A stretch of 58,197 bases of DNA, taken from Clostridiales bacterium DTU033. GTDB taxonomy: Bacteria; Bacillota; Clostridia; Oscillospirales; Acutalibacteraceae. Under the pieces are notes generated by a model. It saw only the letters and a list, made by a program, of their open reading frames with translations, had not been told where the DNA came from and searched no databases. The stretch covers positions 24,462 to 82,658 of the forward strand of contig LFTH01000055.1 of assembly GCA_001513365.1 (NCBI GenBank). The letters are read 5' to 3'. The position numbers were made by a program, and so were the translations under genes. This document shows, in pieces, positions 49,342 to 58,197 of this stretch. Within the stretch, counting starts at the first letter, position 1. Each line of letters opens with the position of its first letter.

Positions 49342-50100
49342 TTACGCCTGCCGGACTAAATCCTTCATGTTGTAAAGTCCGGGCTTGCAGGTAGTAAGGA
49401 AAAGGGCTGCGTTTATCGCGCCGACCGCGAAAATCTCCTTGGACAGCGCGGTGTGGGAAATGGTGATTACCTCGTCGTGCCCTGCGAAAATTACTTCGTG
49501 TTCCCCGACGATGGTCCCGCCGCGGATTGAGGAAATCCCGATTTCGGCTTTTGCCCGCTTTTTCCTGACGCTGTGGCGGTCGAACACATATTGCGGCTGA
49601 TATTCAAGCCCTTCGGACACGGCGTCGGCGAGCATCAGCGCGGTGCCGGACGGGGCGTCGATTTTCTGGTTGTGGTGCTTTTCAAGTATCTCGATGTCAA
49701 ATTCGCCGCCGAGCACCGCCGCGGCTTTTTTGACAAGCTCGGTTAAAAGACTAATGCCGATTGACATATTGCCGCTGTAAAAAATCGGCAGCAGCTTTGA
49801 AAGCTTATTGATTTCCTCGACTTGCTCGTCAAACAGGCCGGTGGTCGCAATCACCGTCGGCAGCTTGTGCTGGTACGCGCAGGACAATACGCCGTCAAGC
49901 GCGCTGGGGTGCGAAAAGTCGATAATCACGTCCGCTTCAACCTGACAGTTTGACGGGTTCGCGTAAACGGGGAAGTCAGCGTGCCTTTCGGTGTTAATGT
50001 CAAACCCCGCGACAATTCTGCAGTCCGCGCGGTTGGCGACGCAGCCGGTGATGACGCGGCCCATTTTCCCGTTGCAGCCGCTCAGTATTATTCTGACCAT
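49342..50100 (-). CDS. dapB: 4-hydroxy-tetrahydrodipicolinate reductase
   Basis: A 252-aa NAD(P)H enzyme of the diaminopimelate/lysine pathway. ILSGCNGKMGR (nucleotide binding), VIIDFSHPSALDGVL, ATTGLFDEQ and the catalytic HHNQKIDAPSGTAL motif are present. The start is ATG 50100 with GAAGGGACG upstream; the longer ORF overlaps dapA. Last gene of the riboswitch-controlled asd-dapA-dapB operon. Confidence 0.96.
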   Translation of the reverse strand: MVRIILSGCNGKMGRVITGCVANRADCRIVAGFDINTERHADFPVYANPSNCQVEADVIIDFSHPSALDGVLSCAYQHKLPTVIATTGLFDEQVEEINKLSKLLPIFYSGNMSIGISLLTELVKKAAAVLGGEFDIEILEKHHNQKIDAPSGTALMLADAVSEGLEYQPQYVFDRHSVRKKRAKAEIGISSIRGGTIVGEHEVIFAGHDEVITISHTALSKEIFAVGAINAALFLTTCKPGLYNMKDLVRQA

Positions 50101-50131
50101 ATTAAAACGTCCCTTCTGCAGCCTGACTTTT

Positions 50132-51025
50132 TCAGGCAATCAGTCCGTGGCGGCGCAGAACGTCCGCCAATGCTTTACGGCCATTTTCGTCCATCTGATA
50201 AAGCGGCATACGGCACGGGCCGACGTTCATACCCATCATGTTCATCGCCTCTTTGACCGGAATGGGGTTGACGTCCGAAAACAGGGCGTTGATTAAATCA
50301 AGCAGTTCAAGCTGAAGCGCGCAGCTGCCCCTGATGTCCCCGTCAAACCAGCGGCGGGTTATGTCGCCTGTTTTCTTTGGCAGAACGTTTGCAACCACCG
50401 AGATTACCCCTTTGCCGCCCAAAGACAGGATAGGAACTATCTGGTCGTCGTTACCCGAATAAAGGTCGATGTTATCGCCGCACAGCGCCGCGGTCTTCAC
50501 CATCGACGAGACGTTGCTGTTCGCTTCTTTAATCCCGACTATGTACGGGTTTTTCGCAAGTTCGGCGTAGGTTTCGGGCTTGATGTCCAGCGCGGTGCGG
50601 GAGGGCACGTTATACAGGATTACCGGCATTTTAACCTCGTTCGCGACCATGTTATAATGCGCGATAAGCCCGCGCTGCGAGGTCTTGTTGTAATACGGGG
50701 TAACAAGCAGCAGCGCGTCCGAGCCGAGCTCTTTTGCCTTTAAAGACAGGTCAACACAGTAGCTTGTGTCGTTTGAGCCGGTCCCCGCGATTACCGGCAC
50801 CCTGCCTCTTGCCTGTTCGATTGCGGCCTTAATCACCGCGATATGCTCGTCGTCGTCCAAAGTCGAAGCTTCGCCGGTTGTGCCGCAGGCGATGATTGCT
50901 TCAATTCCGTTTTCAATCTGCCATTCCACCAGTTCGCGGAATTTTTCAAAATTCACGCTGCCGTCCCGGTTCATCGGTGTAACGATTGCCACGCCGGTAC
51001 CTGTGAAAACAGTAGTCTTACTCAT
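50132..51025 (-). CDS. dapA: 4-hydroxy-tetrahydrodipicolinate synthase
   Basis: A 297-aa TIM-barrel aldolase condensing aspartate semialdehyde with pyruvate. ACGTTGEASTL, YNVPSRTALDI (catalytic Tyr) and VGIKEANSN (Schiff-base Lys) are intact. Its product feeds both cell-wall mDAP and spore dipicolinate. It sits 33 nt downstream of asd. Confidence 0.97.
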   Translation of the reverse strand: MSKTTVFTGTGVAIVTPMNRDGSVNFEKFRELVEWQIENGIEAIIACGTTGEASTLDDDEHIAVIKAAIEQARGRVPVIAGTGSNDTSYCVDLSLKAKELGSDALLLVTPYYNKTSQRGLIAHYNMVANEVKMPVILYNVPSRTALDIKPETYAELAKNPYIVGIKEANSNVSSMVKTAALCGDNIDLYSGNDDQIVPILSLGGKGVISVVANVLPKKTGDITRRWFDGDIRGSCALQLELLDLINALFSDVNPIPVKEAMNMMGMNVGPCRMPLYQMDENGRKALADVLRRHGLIA

Positions 51026-51058
51026 AATAACCCCCGTCCTTTACAAAATATTTGCGGT

Positions 51059-52135
51059 TTAGTCCATATAACCTTCTGCGCATAAAAGCTCGGCGAGCAA
51101 TACCGCGCCGCCGGCGGCTCCGCGGAGGGTGTTGTGCGAAAGCCCGACAAATTTGTAGTCGTACTGGGTGTCTTCGCGCAGGCGGCCGAGCGATATAGTC
51201 ATTCCGCATTCAAGGTCCCTGCAGCGGGCGGTCTGCGGCATGTCATCCTCGTGGTAATACTTTAAAAACTGTTTGGGCGCGCTCGGCAGATTAAGCTGCT
51301 GGGGACGGCCCTTAAAATTATTCCAGACCTCGATTATCTCTTCTTTTGTCGGCTTTTTCTCAAAGCTGCAGTAAACCGCGGCGAGATGTCCGTCCGACAC
51401 CGGAACGCGGATACACTGGGCGGTGAAGACCGGGGTTTTTGCCGGGACGATGACCCCGTTTTCAATCTTTCCCCAGATTTTAAGCGGTTCCTGCTCGGAT
51501 TTTTCTTCCTCCCCGCCGATATAGGGGATAACGTTGTCTATCATTTCCGGCCAGCTTTCAAAGGTCTTGCCGGCGCCGGAGATAGCCTGATAGGTGCAGA
51601 CCAGCACTTTTTCAATTCCCCACGGCGACAGCGGGTAGAGGGCGGGAACGTAGCTTTGCAGCGAACAGTTGGATTTTACCGCAACAAAGCCCTTTTTTGT
51701 GCCCAGTCTTGCGCGCTGGTACGGAATGACGTTTAGGTGGTCGCTGTTGAGCTCAGGGATAATCATCGGCACGTCGGGGGTTGAGCGGTGCGCGCTGTTG
51801 TTTGATACCACCGGGCATTCCGCGCGGGCGTAGGCTTCCTCAAGCTCTCTTATCTTATCTTTGGGCATGTCGACCGCGCAGAACACGAAATCCGCCTGCT
51901 TTGCGACTTCCTCAACCTTGGAGGCGTCCAGCACGACAAGGTCTTTCATTGACTGTGGGACAGGGCTGTCCATAACCCAGCGGCCTCTCACAGCCTGCTC
52001 GTAAGTTTTTCCGGCCGAGCGCGGGCTTGCGGCGAGAACTGTAACATTAAACCACGGATGGTTTTCCAAAAGGGAGGCAAAGCGCTGGCCCACTATGCCG
52101 GTACAGCCTATAATTCCCACATTCCATTTTTTCAT
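51059..52135 (-). CDS. asd: Aspartate-semialdehyde dehydrogenase
   Basis: A 358-aa NADP-dependent enzyme reducing aspartyl phosphate. The start VGIIGCTGIVGQRFASLL is the cofactor site; VKSNCSLQSYVPAL contains the catalytic Cys and ISGAGKTFESWPEM is conserved. The longer EELNSDH/IIPELNSDHL form and overall length place it with the archaeal/fungal-type Asd found in many Clostridia rather than the E. coli type. First gene behind the lysine riboswitch, with AGAAAGGACATC before the ATG. Confidence 0.95.
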   Translation of the reverse strand: MKKWNVGIIGCTGIVGQRFASLLENHPWFNVTVLAASPRSAGKTYEQAVRGRWVMDSPVPQSMKDLVVLDASKVEEVAKQADFVFCAVDMPKDKIRELEEAYARAECPVVSNNSAHRSTPDVPMIIPELNSDHLNVIPYQRARLGTKKGFVAVKSNCSLQSYVPALYPLSPWGIEKVLVCTYQAISGAGKTFESWPEMIDNVIPYIGGEEEKSEQEPLKIWGKIENGVIVPAKTPVFTAQCIRVPVSDGHLAAVYCSFEKKPTKEEIIEVWNNFKGRPQQLNLPSAPKQFLKYYHEDDMPQTARCRDLECGMTISLGRLREDTQYDYKFVGLSHNTLRGAAGGAVLLAELLCAEGYMD

Positions 52136-52169
52136 TATAAGATGTCCTTTCTTCTGAGAAGTTTTAAAA

Positions 52170-52251
52170 ATGCAGTATTATAGGCTGAGGTCGTTTTGGA
52201 AATAAAAAAACCGGTTGAAAACCGGCTGCCATCCACCTATAATAGATGCAT
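52170..52251 (-). repeat. Long-range inverted repeat enclosing the L-box terminator
   Basis: ATGCAGTATTATAGG (52170-52184) and CCTATAATAGATGCAT (52236-52251) are complementary apart from the G/GA offset near the outer end and lie symmetrically on both sides of the intrinsic terminator. The arms would form a 14-15 bp helix in the leader RNA. Confidence 0.7.
52204..52225 (-). terminator. Expression-platform terminator of the lysine riboswitch
   Basis: Minus-strand CCGGTT-TTC-AACCGG hairpin followed by seven T, 66 nt after the aptamer and 69 nt before asd. Lysine binding is expected to favour it. Confidence 0.85.
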
Positions 52252-52290
52252 TGACGCATGAATAAAACTCTTGTGGTATTTTCCATGCGC

Positions 52291-52458
52291 GAATAGCTCT
52301 CCATCATAATGCTATGATGACAACCTCACGATTATTCATCGTAAAGCCAGGCAAGACGCTCTCCGGGAACGCCAAACCTTCGGCGCCGATGCCTTTCCTT
52401 TGCGTTCACAGACCCGGTATCTCCCGCAAAATACTCTTCATCAGGCGCGCCTCTATTC
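52291..52458 (-). ncRNA. Lysine riboswitch aptamer (L-box)
   Basis: On the minus strand P1 pairs GAATAG with CTATTC at the two ends. The conserved pieces occur in order: ATAGAGGCGC, GAAGAGTA, GGAAAGG, CGCCGAAGG, GAGGTTGTCA and, after the CATCATAGCATTATGATG hairpin, GGAGAGCTAT. These are the signature sequences of the lysine-binding L-box. It controls the asd-dapA-dapB operon by transcription termination. Confidence 0.96.
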
Positions 52459-52467
52459 CGTAAAACT

Positions 52468-54862: not shown

Positions 54863-54891
54863 AAAAAGGATTTTTCAGGGAGGTGCTTTTA

Positions 54892-55272
54892 TTGGTTTTG
54901 TTGAAATCTTTGCTTGCGGCGACCACCGCCGCCGCCGATACGCCACAGCAGGGGAGTACGGCCGCGCTGCTTTTACAGCTTGCTCCTTTTTTGCTTTTAA
55001 TCCCGCTTATGTATTTTCTGATGATTCGCCCGCAGAAGAAAAAGCAGAAAGAAGAGCAGAAAATGCGCGAAAGCCTGCGGGTCGGGGACGAGGTTACCAC
55101 CATCGGCGGCGTAACCGGCATAGTTATCAGCGTCAAGGACGATTCGTTTGTAATCGAAACCGGGGCGGCGCGCACCAAGTTGACATTTAAAAAGTGGGCG
55201 CTTCAGACCATCCACACAGTCCACGATGACGACGATTTGGATGACGATTTCGACGACGACGATGATATTTAA
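54892..55272 (+). CDS. yajC: Preprotein translocase subunit YajC
   Basis: A 126-aa single-pass membrane protein associated with SecDF/YidC. After a signal-like start comes the membrane helix LAPFLLLIPLMYFLMIRPQKKKQKE, whose IRPQKKK end is diagnostic. A cytosolic domain with GDEVTTIGGVTGIV follows. The last 16 residues are nearly all Asp (DDDDLDDDFDDDDD), far more acidic than usual. TTG 54892 follows GGGAGG at 8 nt. secD/secF are not adjacent in the window. Confidence 0.92.
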   Translation: MVLLKSLLAATTAAADTPQQGSTAALLLQLAPFLLLIPLMYFLMIRPQKKKQKEEQKMRESLRVGDEVTTIGGVTGIVISVKDDSFVIETGAARTKLTFKKWALQTIHTVHDDDDLDDDFDDDDDI

Positions 55273-55388: not shown

Positions 55389-55787
55389 TTGAAGACAGGT
55401 AGGGAAGAATCGGCTTTGTCAAAATGGCTGCGGCCGGTTTTAATCGGGGCGACGGCAGGGGTGCTCTGTTGCATTGCGGTGCTGCTATTGTTTGCGCTGC
55501 TGATGGCTGCGCGCGACATCCCGCAGCCCGCTGTTACGCCCATGGCGGTTATCGCGGCTGCGGTGGGCTCCTTTTTCGGGGGCTTTGTCAGCGCGCGCGC
55601 GGCGGGCAGTCGCGGCCTTGTTTTCGGCGCGGCGACCGGCGCGCTGATTTTCCTGCTTATCGTGATTGCCGGTTTTTCATTTTTGCATGACATACGCGGA
55701 TGGTATGCGCTTATAAAGCTGCCGGTGGTGGTGATAAGCTCCACATTAGGCGGCATTTACGGGGTGAATTTCCGCCGCCGAAAGTAG
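55389..55787 (+). CDS. TIGR04086-type membrane protein
   Basis: A 132-aa protein with four hydrophobic segments (for example AGVLCCIAVLLLFALLM and GALIFLLIVIAGFSFLH) and a basic NFRRRK end. Size, topology and position between yajC and the SCIFF genes match the TIGR04086 family of Clostridia; function unknown. TTG start with GGGAGGG upstream. A small perfect hairpin (TGCCGG-CTGT-CCGGCA, 55353-55368) precedes the ribosome site. Confidence 0.82.
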   Translation: MKTGREESALSKWLRPVLIGATAGVLCCIAVLLLFALLMAARDIPQPAVTPMAVIAAAVGSFFGGFVSARAAGSRGLVFGAATGALIFLLIVIAGFSFLHDIRGWYALIKLPVVVISSTLGGIYGVNFRRRK

Positions 55788-55851: not shown

Positions 55852-55880
55852 TTGAAAAACAGGCGGCGGTGTGCTAGAAT
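55852..55880 (+). promoter_or_regulatory. Predicted promoter of scfA
   Basis: TTGAAA, 17-bp spacer, TAGAAT, 49 bp before scfA. A second TTGAAAAA copy lies 11 bp upstream. Confidence 0.6.
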
Positions 55881-55929
55881 AACTAAAACGGTTTTTTGAA
55901 TACCGGTGAAGTCAATTGGGGGAAATACA

Positions 55930-56067
55930 ATGAAACATATAAAGACAATCAACAAGCAGAATCTTAAGAAAACCGCGGCAAAAGGCGGCTGCGGAGAGTG
56001 TCAGGCTTCCTGCCAGTCAGCCTGTAAGACTTCCTGTACCGTAGCCAATCAGAAATGCGAAAGGTGA
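55930..56067 (+). CDS. scfA: SCIFF ribosomal peptide precursor (six cysteines in forty-five residues)
   Basis: A 45-aa precursor below the ORF-track cutoff. Leader MKHIKTINKQNLKKTAAKGG is followed by a Cys-rich core with Cys at 21, 24, 28, 32, 36 and 43, exactly the SCIFF pattern. Thr37 stands five residues after Cys32; in the characterised Clostridium thermocellum peptide a thioether joins Cys32 to Thr37, and both residues are conserved here. The maturase gene follows. GGGGGAAAT precedes the ATG. The family is nearly universal in Clostridia but its biological role is not settled. Confidence 0.97.
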   Translation: MKHIKTINKQNLKKTAAKGGCGECQASCQSACKTSCTVANQKCER

Positions 56068-56123
56068 TATAAGCGGAATTTGCCGCACGGCGAATAATAC
56101 TGCTTTTTAATTTTTGCGGCTGG

Positions 56124-56154
56124 CAGGGCGGATGGTCATCCGCCCTGTTTATTT
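56124..56154 (+). terminator. Hairpin attenuator between scfA and scfB
   Basis: Perfect 10-bp stem CAGGGCGGAT/ATCCGCCCTG with a 4-nt loop, followed by TTTATTT, in the 123-nt gap. It would let the peptide be made in excess of the enzyme. Confidence 0.8.
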
Positions 56155-56190
56155 AAGGAATTAAGACAAGACAGGGGAAAAGAAACCGAG

Positions 56191-57555
56191 ATGATACATC
56201 GGTACCAAAACAACGGATATAACATAGTGCTTGACGTCAACAGCGGCGCCGTCCATCTGGTGGACAGCCTTGTTTACGAAATGCTCGGAATGCTGGGCGA
56301 GCAGGCGGAAAGCCTCGGTGAAACCTGCCCCGCAGAGATAGCCGCCGAGTTATCGGAAAGATACAGCGCGCAGGCGGTTGACGATGGGTACGGCGAGATT
56401 TACCGGCTGTACTGCGACGGTCTGCTTTACAGCACCGACGATTACGAGGGGATTGCCGAAAAAACGATTATTTCGCCTTTTAAGGCAATCTGCCTGCATG
56501 TATCACACGACTGCAATCTGAGGTGCGGGTACTGCTTTGCCGGGCAGGGCGGGTACGGCAGCGAGAAGAAGCTGATGAGCGAGGAAGTGGCGCTCGCGGC
56601 GGTCGATTTTCTTATCGAAAACTCCGGCAGCCGGCGCAATCTTGAGATAGATTTTTTCGGCGGGGAGCCGCTTTTGAACTTCGAGGCAATCAAAAAAACA
56701 GTGGAATACGGGCGCGGCCTTGAAAGAAAACACGACAAGGTTTTCCGCTTTACCACGACTACCAACGGGGTACTGTTAAACGACGAGATTGCGGATTTTT
56801 TGAACAGGGAAATGCACAACGTTGTGCTGTCGCTGGACGGGCGCAGAGAGGTCAACGACAGAGTGCGTCCGGATTTGGGTGGCGGCGGAAGCTATGACAG
56901 GATAGTCCCGAAATACCAGCATTTTGCCCGGATACGCGGGGACGGGGATTATTATGTCAGGGGCACTTACACAAAAAACAACCTCGATTTTGCCGAGGAT
57001 GTGATGCATATGTATGAGCTTGGTTTTGACCAGATTTCGGTCGAGCCGGTAATCAGCGACCCCGGCCTTCCCTTTTCGATTACAGAGGAGGACTTGCCGA
57101 GGATTTTTGACGAGTACGACAGGCTGGCAAGGACCGTGATTGAACTCAAAAGGAAGGGCAGAGGGTTTAACTTCTTTCATTTCATGATTGATTTGGAGCA
57201 GGGGCCGTGCGTGATTAAAAGGCTCCGCGGCTGCGGCTGCGGCAACGAATACGCGGCGGTAGACCCCGACGGCAATCTTTACCCCTGCCATCAGTTTGTG
57301 GGCAGGGAGGAATGGAAGATGGGGAACGTGCTCACAGGCGGATATGACAGGGGCATAAAACAGCGGTTTGCGAAATCCACCGTTTACGATAAAGCCGAAT
57401 GCCGCAAATGCTGGGCGAAATTCTACTGCTCCGGCGGCTGCAGCGCCAACAATTTTCAGTATGAGGGAGATATACTAAAACCCCATTCCCTGTCGTGCAG
57501 TATTGAAAAAAAGCGGCTTGAATGCGCGATAATGATTAAGGCGGCTTTGTCTTAG
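56191..57555 (+). CDS. scfB: Thioether cross-link-forming SCIFF peptide maturase (radical SAM/SPASM)
   Basis: A 454-aa radical SAM enzyme that installs a Cys-to-Thr thioether in ScfA. Residues 1-95 form a RiPP recognition-like domain (YNIVLDVNSGAVHLVDSLVYEM) that binds the leader. The radical SAM cluster motif is SHDCNLRCGYCFAG, followed by FFGGEPLLNF and TTTNGVLL. The C-terminal SPASM-type domain contributes many Cys: GCGCGNE, YPCHQFVG, CRKCWAKFYCSGGCSANN and a final LSCS, binding two auxiliary clusters. Full family length; no defects seen. Confidence 0.97.
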   Translation: MIHRYQNNGYNIVLDVNSGAVHLVDSLVYEMLGMLGEQAESLGETCPAEIAAELSERYSAQAVDDGYGEIYRLYCDGLLYSTDDYEGIAEKTIISPFKAICLHVSHDCNLRCGYCFAGQGGYGSEKKLMSEEVALAAVDFLIENSGSRRNLEIDFFGGEPLLNFEAIKKTVEYGRGLERKHDKVFRFTTTTNGVLLNDEIADFLNREMHNVVLSLDGRREVNDRVRPDLGGGGSYDRIVPKYQHFARIRGDGDYYVRGTYTKNNLDFAEDVMHMYELGFDQISVEPVISDPGLPFSITEEDLPRIFDEYDRLARTVIELKRKGRGFNFFHFMIDLEQGPCVIKRLRGCGCGNEYAAVDPDGNLYPCHQFVGREEWKMGNVLTGGYDRGIKQRFAKSTVYDKAECRKCWAKFYCSGGCSANNFQYEGDILKPHSLSCSIEKKRLECAIMIKAALS

Positions 57556-57596: not shown

Positions 57597-57628
57597 GGTA
57601 GCACAGGGAGGGTATGCCCTGTTCTACC
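57597..57628 (+). other. Stem-loop upstream of the SpoIIM-like gene
   Basis: GGTAG-C-ACAGGG pairs with CCCTGT-T-CTACC across AGGGTATG. No T-run follows; it ends 7 nt before the GCGGAGG ribosome site, so it is more likely a leader structure than a terminator. Confidence 0.45.
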
Positions 57629-57646
57629 CTCATGCGGAGGTGCTGT

Positions 57647-58197
57647 ATGGGCAAAAAAGGGACAAACCACCGCCGTTTTTCATCTGCAGCCAAAACAGCG
57701 GCGTCGTGGGCGGCATTTTTGGCTGAAAACCGCTTTTTTATTTTGTTTTCGTTTGTGTTTTTGGCCGGCGCCGCGTTGGGAGTGGTGGTATACGCGTTCT
57801 CCGGTCAGGCTGTCGCGGAGGAGCTTGGCATCATATTGAGCATCAAGGGGGCTGTCCGCGGGTTTAAAGGCTGCGTGTCGGCGTTGTTTTCTTCGTGTTT
57901 TCCCTCGTTTTTACTGCTTGCCCTGCTGTTTTTGTGCGGATTGTCGGCGTGCGGTGCGCCGCTTGCGGCAGCGGTGCCGCTGTTTTTCGGGATGGGGCTC
58001 GGCCTTACCGAGGGGTATTACGGCTCGCTGGGGATAAAGGGTTTTTTGATTTTAGCCCTGCTTGTGGTCCCGCATTATCTGATTGCGGCCGCCGCGCTGC
58101 TGTTCGGGGCGATGGAATCGCTGCGGCTGTCGGTTTTAATCAGCCGTCAGCTTCTGCCAGGCGGGATGATGGGCGGTTTATGGCAGGATTTTAAACT
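57647..58197 (+). CDS. SpoIIM-like membrane protein, 3' end outside the window
   Basis: An ORF open to the last base and so absent from the ORF track. ATG 57647 follows GCGGAGG at 6 nt. The 183 residues seen have a basic N-terminus, a membrane helix near residue 27 (RFFILFSFVFLAGAALGVVVYAF), then several more helices with CFPSFLLLALLFLCG, FFGMGLGLTEGYYGSLGIKGFLILALLVVPHYLI and an MESLRLSVLI segment. This order and the glycine-rich loop before the VVPHYLI helix resemble SpoIIM, which works with SpoIID/SpoIIP in engulfment. The family call is by pattern and tentative. Confidence 0.65.
   Translation, partial: MGKKGTNHRRFSSAAKTAASWAAFLAENRFFILFSFVFLAGAALGVVVYAFSGQAVAEELGIILSIKGAVRGFKGCVSALFSSCFPSFLLLALLFLCGLSACGAPLAAAVPLFFGMGLGLTEGYYGSLGIKGFLILALLVVPHYLIAAAALLFGAMESLRLSVLISRQLLPGGMMGGLWQDFK

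Follow-up and report, generated by a model that had tools for sequence, protein, structure and literature searches.

Two linked questions are raised by the gene pair near the end of this 58,197-nucleotide stretch (hereafter, the window): which residues of its small, cysteine-rich product are joined by the enzyme encoded next to it, and what the product does for the cell. An earlier note had read the pair as a complete SCIFF locus, with a 45-residue peptide carrying six cysteines and a radical SAM/SPASM maturase, and this part of the reading stands. The peptide, ScfA (MKHIKTINKQNLKKTAAKGGCGECQASCQSACKTSCTVANQKCER), has cysteines at positions 21, 24, 28, 32, 36 and 43 and threonines at 34 and 37; its match to TIGR03973 reaches 85.8 bits (cut-off 50), and that to the Pfam SCIFF profile PF13165 88.1 bits (cut-off 27). 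Two further features expected of a SCIFF precursor are present, namely, six cysteines in about 45 residues and a maturase gene within about 500 bases, with scfB starting 123 bases past the scfA stop codon. The maturase, ScfB, matches TIGR03974 with 693.9 bits (cut-off 425) over residues 2–452, and chance is excluded as the source of these family matches. Each gene is present in one copy in the source assembly, which is fragmented and 77% complete (1.48 Mb), the window being part of an 83.8-kb contig. The genes, their conserved residues, the regulatory layout and the gene order (Table 1) are directly observed.

Table 1. Features of the scfA/scfB locus and its flanks (window coordinates)
Feature	Coordinates	Strand	Basis or detail
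yajC, preprotein translocase subunit	54883..55272	+	TIGR00739, 79.4 bits (cut-off 44.2)
TIGR04086/DUF3792 small membrane protein	55389..55787	+	73.7 bits (cut-off 30)
scfA promoter-like site, sigma-70-type	55852..55880	+	TTGAAA, 17 nt, TAGAAT; TG before the -10
scfA, SCIFF precursor, 45 aa	55930..56067	+	TIGR03973 and PF13165 profile matches
Terminator-like hairpin and T-rich tail	56123..56157	+	stem-loop 56123-56148, tail TTATTTAAG
scfB, radical SAM/SPASM SCIFF maturase, 454 aa	56191..57555	+	TIGR03974, CteB alignment
SpoIIM-like membrane protein, to window end	57614..58197	+	TIGR02831, 24.9-25.1 bits (cut-off 100.2)

ScfA shares with the characterized members of its family (TIGR03973, PF13165), CteA of Clostridium thermocellum and Tte1186a of Caldanaerobacter, the length of 45 residues, the six cysteines, the leader pattern MKHIK...KGG and the core CGECQ.SCQSACKTSCTVANQ.CE, and differs from them by leader-residue substitutions of the usual kind only; 12 of 21 leader residues are identical to those of the CteA 1–21 peptide bound in PDB 5WGG. 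The core CGECQ[AT]SCQSACKTSC is nearly invariant across Clostridia. ScfB, in turn, aligns over its full length with CteB (PDB 5WGG, E 7.9e-163). Its radical SAM motif CX3CX2C (Cys108/112/115) is invariant across 123 homologues, as are Cys340, 348, 366, 404, 407, 413 and 417 of the SPASM region, with Cys436 found in 122 and a gap in the remaining one; the SPASM domain PF13186 is matched with 24.4 bits (cut-off 21.5). Residues 1–95 resemble the N-terminal part of CteB (5WGG) in sequence, which points to an RRE leader-recognition domain. By full-length homology, the CX3CX2C motif, the SPASM cysteines and its place adjoining scfA, window ScfB is the counterpart of CteB (TIGR03974; PDB 5WGG, 5WHY), from which it appears to show no difference touching the known active site. 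Two families of related radical SAM/SPASM ranthipeptide maturases were rejected as assignments, given that ScfB passes TIGR03974 but reaches 555.2 bits against not_ScfB (NF040492; own cut-off 855) and 274.9 bits against PapB (NF047865; own cut-off 340).

SCIFF systems are widespread and occur in most Clostridia. Within the order, ScfA was found in 237 of 297 genomes, so that it is dispensable to the group, about one-fifth of whose members lack it. Thus, the locus is an ordinary example of a known family and, alone, adds little; what it offers comes from comparison with its relatives.

The regulatory layout is one such comparison. The promoter-like site upstream of scfA matches 10 of 12 positions, and its last base lies 50 bases before the start codon; position 55852, given by the earlier note as the beginning of the locus, is not a gene start; it opens the -35 hexamer. 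Between scfA and scfB, a hairpin reading GCAGGGCGGATGGTCATCCGCCCTGT-TTATTTAAG resembles a terminator, and none of 200 shuffles of the spacer folds as well as the spacer itself (z = -4.25). This hairpin was found by folding and by our own scan of the spacers; the terminator scan, at its settings, did not report it. Across related loci, 65 of 120 have a promoter-like site with at least 10 of 12 matches immediately before scfA, against 4.9 expected from shuffles, and terminator-like hairpins occupy 89 of 109 scfA–scfB spacers, against 0.4 expected; these are counts from mechanical scans with simple shuffles, and the excess is very large. The two elements are conserved in position and differ in sequence. 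We infer that scfA has a transcript of its own, with scfB reached by read-through. The conserved layout fits an abundant precursor made alongside a limited enzyme, and it predicts peptide in far excess over enzyme. A search of the window for structured RNAs returned only a lysine riboswitch, elsewhere than the SCIFF locus (RF00168, 114.1 bits, 52286-52463, within the region 49342-52463 on the minus strand); the open reading frames downstream of it resemble asd, dapA and dapB and make up a lysine-pathway operon of the ordinary kind.

Taken as a whole, the locus very probably makes a SCIFF ranthipeptide by the scfA/scfB scheme. Under this scheme, scfA would be driven by its own promoter, and the hairpin past it would end most transcripts, leaving ScfA in excess over ScfB. 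The N-terminal recognition domain of ScfB would then bind the ScfA leader (residues 1–20), and cleavage of SAM by the enzyme would generate a 5'-deoxyadenosyl radical that abstracts a hydrogen from a threonine side chain of ScfA, whereupon the sulfur of Cys32, held near a SPASM cluster, would close the thioether with a loss of 2 Da. We infer this chemistry for the window peptide from the characterized relatives and, more weakly, its export, leader removal and cellular role; no dedicated gene for export or leader removal is visible next to the locus.

The flanking genes had been taken as a clue to that role. Upstream, yajC and the TIGR04086 gene are as previously described, both passing their family cut-offs. 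Downstream, the resemblance to SpoIIM is weak: the window open reading frame, whose start codon is either 57614 or 57647, scores 24.9 bits against TIGR02831, and the SpoIIM-like proteins of six relatives, which cover nearly the whole profile, score 37-68 bits. With all of these below the cut-off of 100.2, assignment as SpoIIM was rejected. The best match to this profile in the whole genome is 25.1 bits; the gene is, at best, a divergent SpoIIM homologue, and it is a flanking gene outside the RiPP system. The contig runs 1146 bases past the window end, with undetermined bases followed by a membrane-protein open reading frame that looks DUF624-like by eye (L032 2650-3777; contig 82650-83777); in most contigs of the same genus, too, such a frame comes after the SpoIIM-like gene.

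Recurrence of the flanking genes in related genomes, which the earlier note had proposed as a check, was indeed found. Upstream of Thr37 loci with enough DNA (n = 95), TIGR04086 occurs in at least 69, yajC in at least 63 and tgt in at least 33; downstream (n = 91), at least 35 have the SpoIIM-like gene, 17 proC, 13 xerD and 7 secDF, all of these being lower bounds from a rough caller of open reading frames, with proC, xerD, secDF and the decarboxylase mentioned below named by eye. Directly 3' of scfB, the SpoIIM-like gene is present in 8/8 same-genus contigs that are long enough; beyond the genus of the window, the class-level neighbour of scfB is secDF, proC or another gene. Among the Gly37/Ser37 loci, yajC, TIGR04086 and the SpoIIM-like gene are each absent (0/12), and an ornithine/lysine-decarboxylase-like gene lies near 6/12. 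The recurring flanks (yajC/TIGR04086, spoIIM-xerD) are conserved core-gene order and not evidence of a role in sporulation. Among the papers searched, none linked SCIFF to the yajC/secD order.

Could the peptide nevertheless have a sporulation or developmental role, as its SpoIIM-like neighbour was held to suggest? The constancy of this neighbour within the genus and its recurrence near 35/91 Thr37 loci speak for such a role, as does the presence of spoIVA in the source genome (719.5 bits). Calling the cellular role unresolved, the earlier note had overlooked a 2020 knock-out study, in which disruption of the C. beijerinckii SCIFF lowered sporulation transcripts and raised agr, whereas no link to sporulation was made for the C. 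ljungdahlii SCIFF (both as reviewed in PMC8102284). Against the role stand the change of neighbours elsewhere in the class, the absence of SpoIIM-like genes from the Gly37/Ser37 loci and the distribution of ScfA itself. Across 297 genomes of the order, spoIVA and scfA show no positive association (Fisher p 0.32, in the opposite direction; a coarse test, the genomes being related and incomplete): ScfA is found in 14 of the 15 genomes without spoIVA and in 223 of the 282 with it, and is thus missing from 59. The presence of ScfA does not track sporulation genes, and the hint of a function from the neighbours is weak; we consider a sporulation role indicated by the neighbour improbable, although a regulatory effect on sporulation is possible. 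Still less probable, and to our minds barely credible, is a secreted, bacteriocin-like antimicrobial: a small cysteine-rich RiPP with a radical SAM maturase does recall the sactibiotics, but the core is near-identical across the whole class, the genes next to the locus include none for immunity, a dedicated transporter or a leader peptidase, and its surroundings are core genes for the translocase and for tRNA modification. Most likely, the product is not a bacteriocin but a conserved peptide that serves Clostridia in signalling or housekeeping.

The site of the cross-link is the other question. The family had been said to form a Cys32-Thr37 thioether, and that is indeed the bond mapped for Tte1186a and CteA in vitro; on heterologous co-expression, however, CteA carried the bond between Cys32 and the gamma carbon of Thr34 (Hudson 2019; both results reviewed in PMC8326336, PMC8172795). 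The window peptide has both threonines and, alone, cannot decide which of them is the acceptor. We therefore turn to its relatives, collected at the class level with a search pattern that leaves positions 32, 34, 35 and 37 free (codons transcribed by hand). Among the matches listed, position 34 is threonine in 150/150 peptides, and the same is true of 135/135 local loci, whereas at position 37 the 150 divide into 117 with Thr, 31 with Gly and one each with Ser and Ala. Thus, the pair described as conserved is present here, but its second member is replaced in 33/150 of the matches listed. All 31 of the Gly37 peptides among these matches keep Cys32, and they come from about a dozen families, some of which also have Thr37. 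Given that glycine has no side-chain carbon, residue 37 cannot supply the carbon in these peptides; with Thr34 invariant and Gly at position 37 in about one-fifth, Thr37 is not the family-wide acceptor.

The invariance of Thr34 favours this residue, without proof, as the general SCIFF acceptor, although its conservation might instead serve recognition by the enzyme. As for the window peptide, Cys32-Thr37 could be its physiological bond, in line with the in vitro mapping, with the presence of both residues and with the retention of Thr37 in its clade; in view of the co-expression result and of the Cys32-keeping peptides that have Gly37, we regard this as rather unlikely and lean, with some reserve, towards Thr34 as the likelier acceptor of the two threonines. 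The pair should be stated as Cys32 with Thr34 or Thr37. Natural peptides can separate the two reported positions: those with Gly37, which have Cys32 and Thr34, and those with Ser32, which lack the donor.

The Ser32 peptides belong to one lineage within the window's own family. They were found in 13 genomes from eight genera of this family and, in the class scan, in G104, and read CQSASKTSC[S/A][V/I]ANQ, with Cys32 changed to Ser and position 37 Ser or Ala; among the peptides compared, Ser32 was never seen together with Thr37 or Gly37. The loci are L033, L041 and L169-L179 (and G104), which span at least eight genera of this family. In their ScfB partners, both the radical SAM triad and the SPASM cysteines are intact. 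At ScfB residue 350, two past the SPASM-region Cys348, 13/13 partners of Ser32 peptides have Val and 13/13 partners of Gly37 peptides have Ser, whereas most partners of Thr37 peptides have Cys, Ala or Ser. A quick tree of ScfB places the sequences from Ser32 and Gly37 loci with Lachnospiraceae, apart from the window's clade; because shared residues partly reflect shared ancestry, the co-variation of residue 350 with peptide type is suggestive only. The ScfB proteins of the Gly37 loci (L038, L043, L044, L045, L047, L056, L064, L066, L067, L069, L073, L180, L181) form one clade near Lachnospiraceae, and these loci do not lie beside yajC; they seem to represent a second SCIFF lineage within Oscillospirales, either relocated or acquired by transfer. 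Tandem scfA-like cores about 130 bases apart, both with Gly37, occur at G529:C84:13965-14147 and G653:C161:6888-7073.

Our partial literature search returned no description of a Ser32 SCIFF. A more far-reaching reading, to which we give slightly less than an even chance, is that Thr34 is the universal acceptor and that the Ser32 lineage lost the donor but retained an intact maturase, in which the constant Val350, close to an auxiliary-cluster cysteine, is the matching change. The window locus itself is ordinary, and it is the Ser32 lineage that is the interesting lead: if this reading is true, the SCIFF of that lineage would be bonded differently or not at all, and the lineage would offer a natural test of the purpose of the cross-link.
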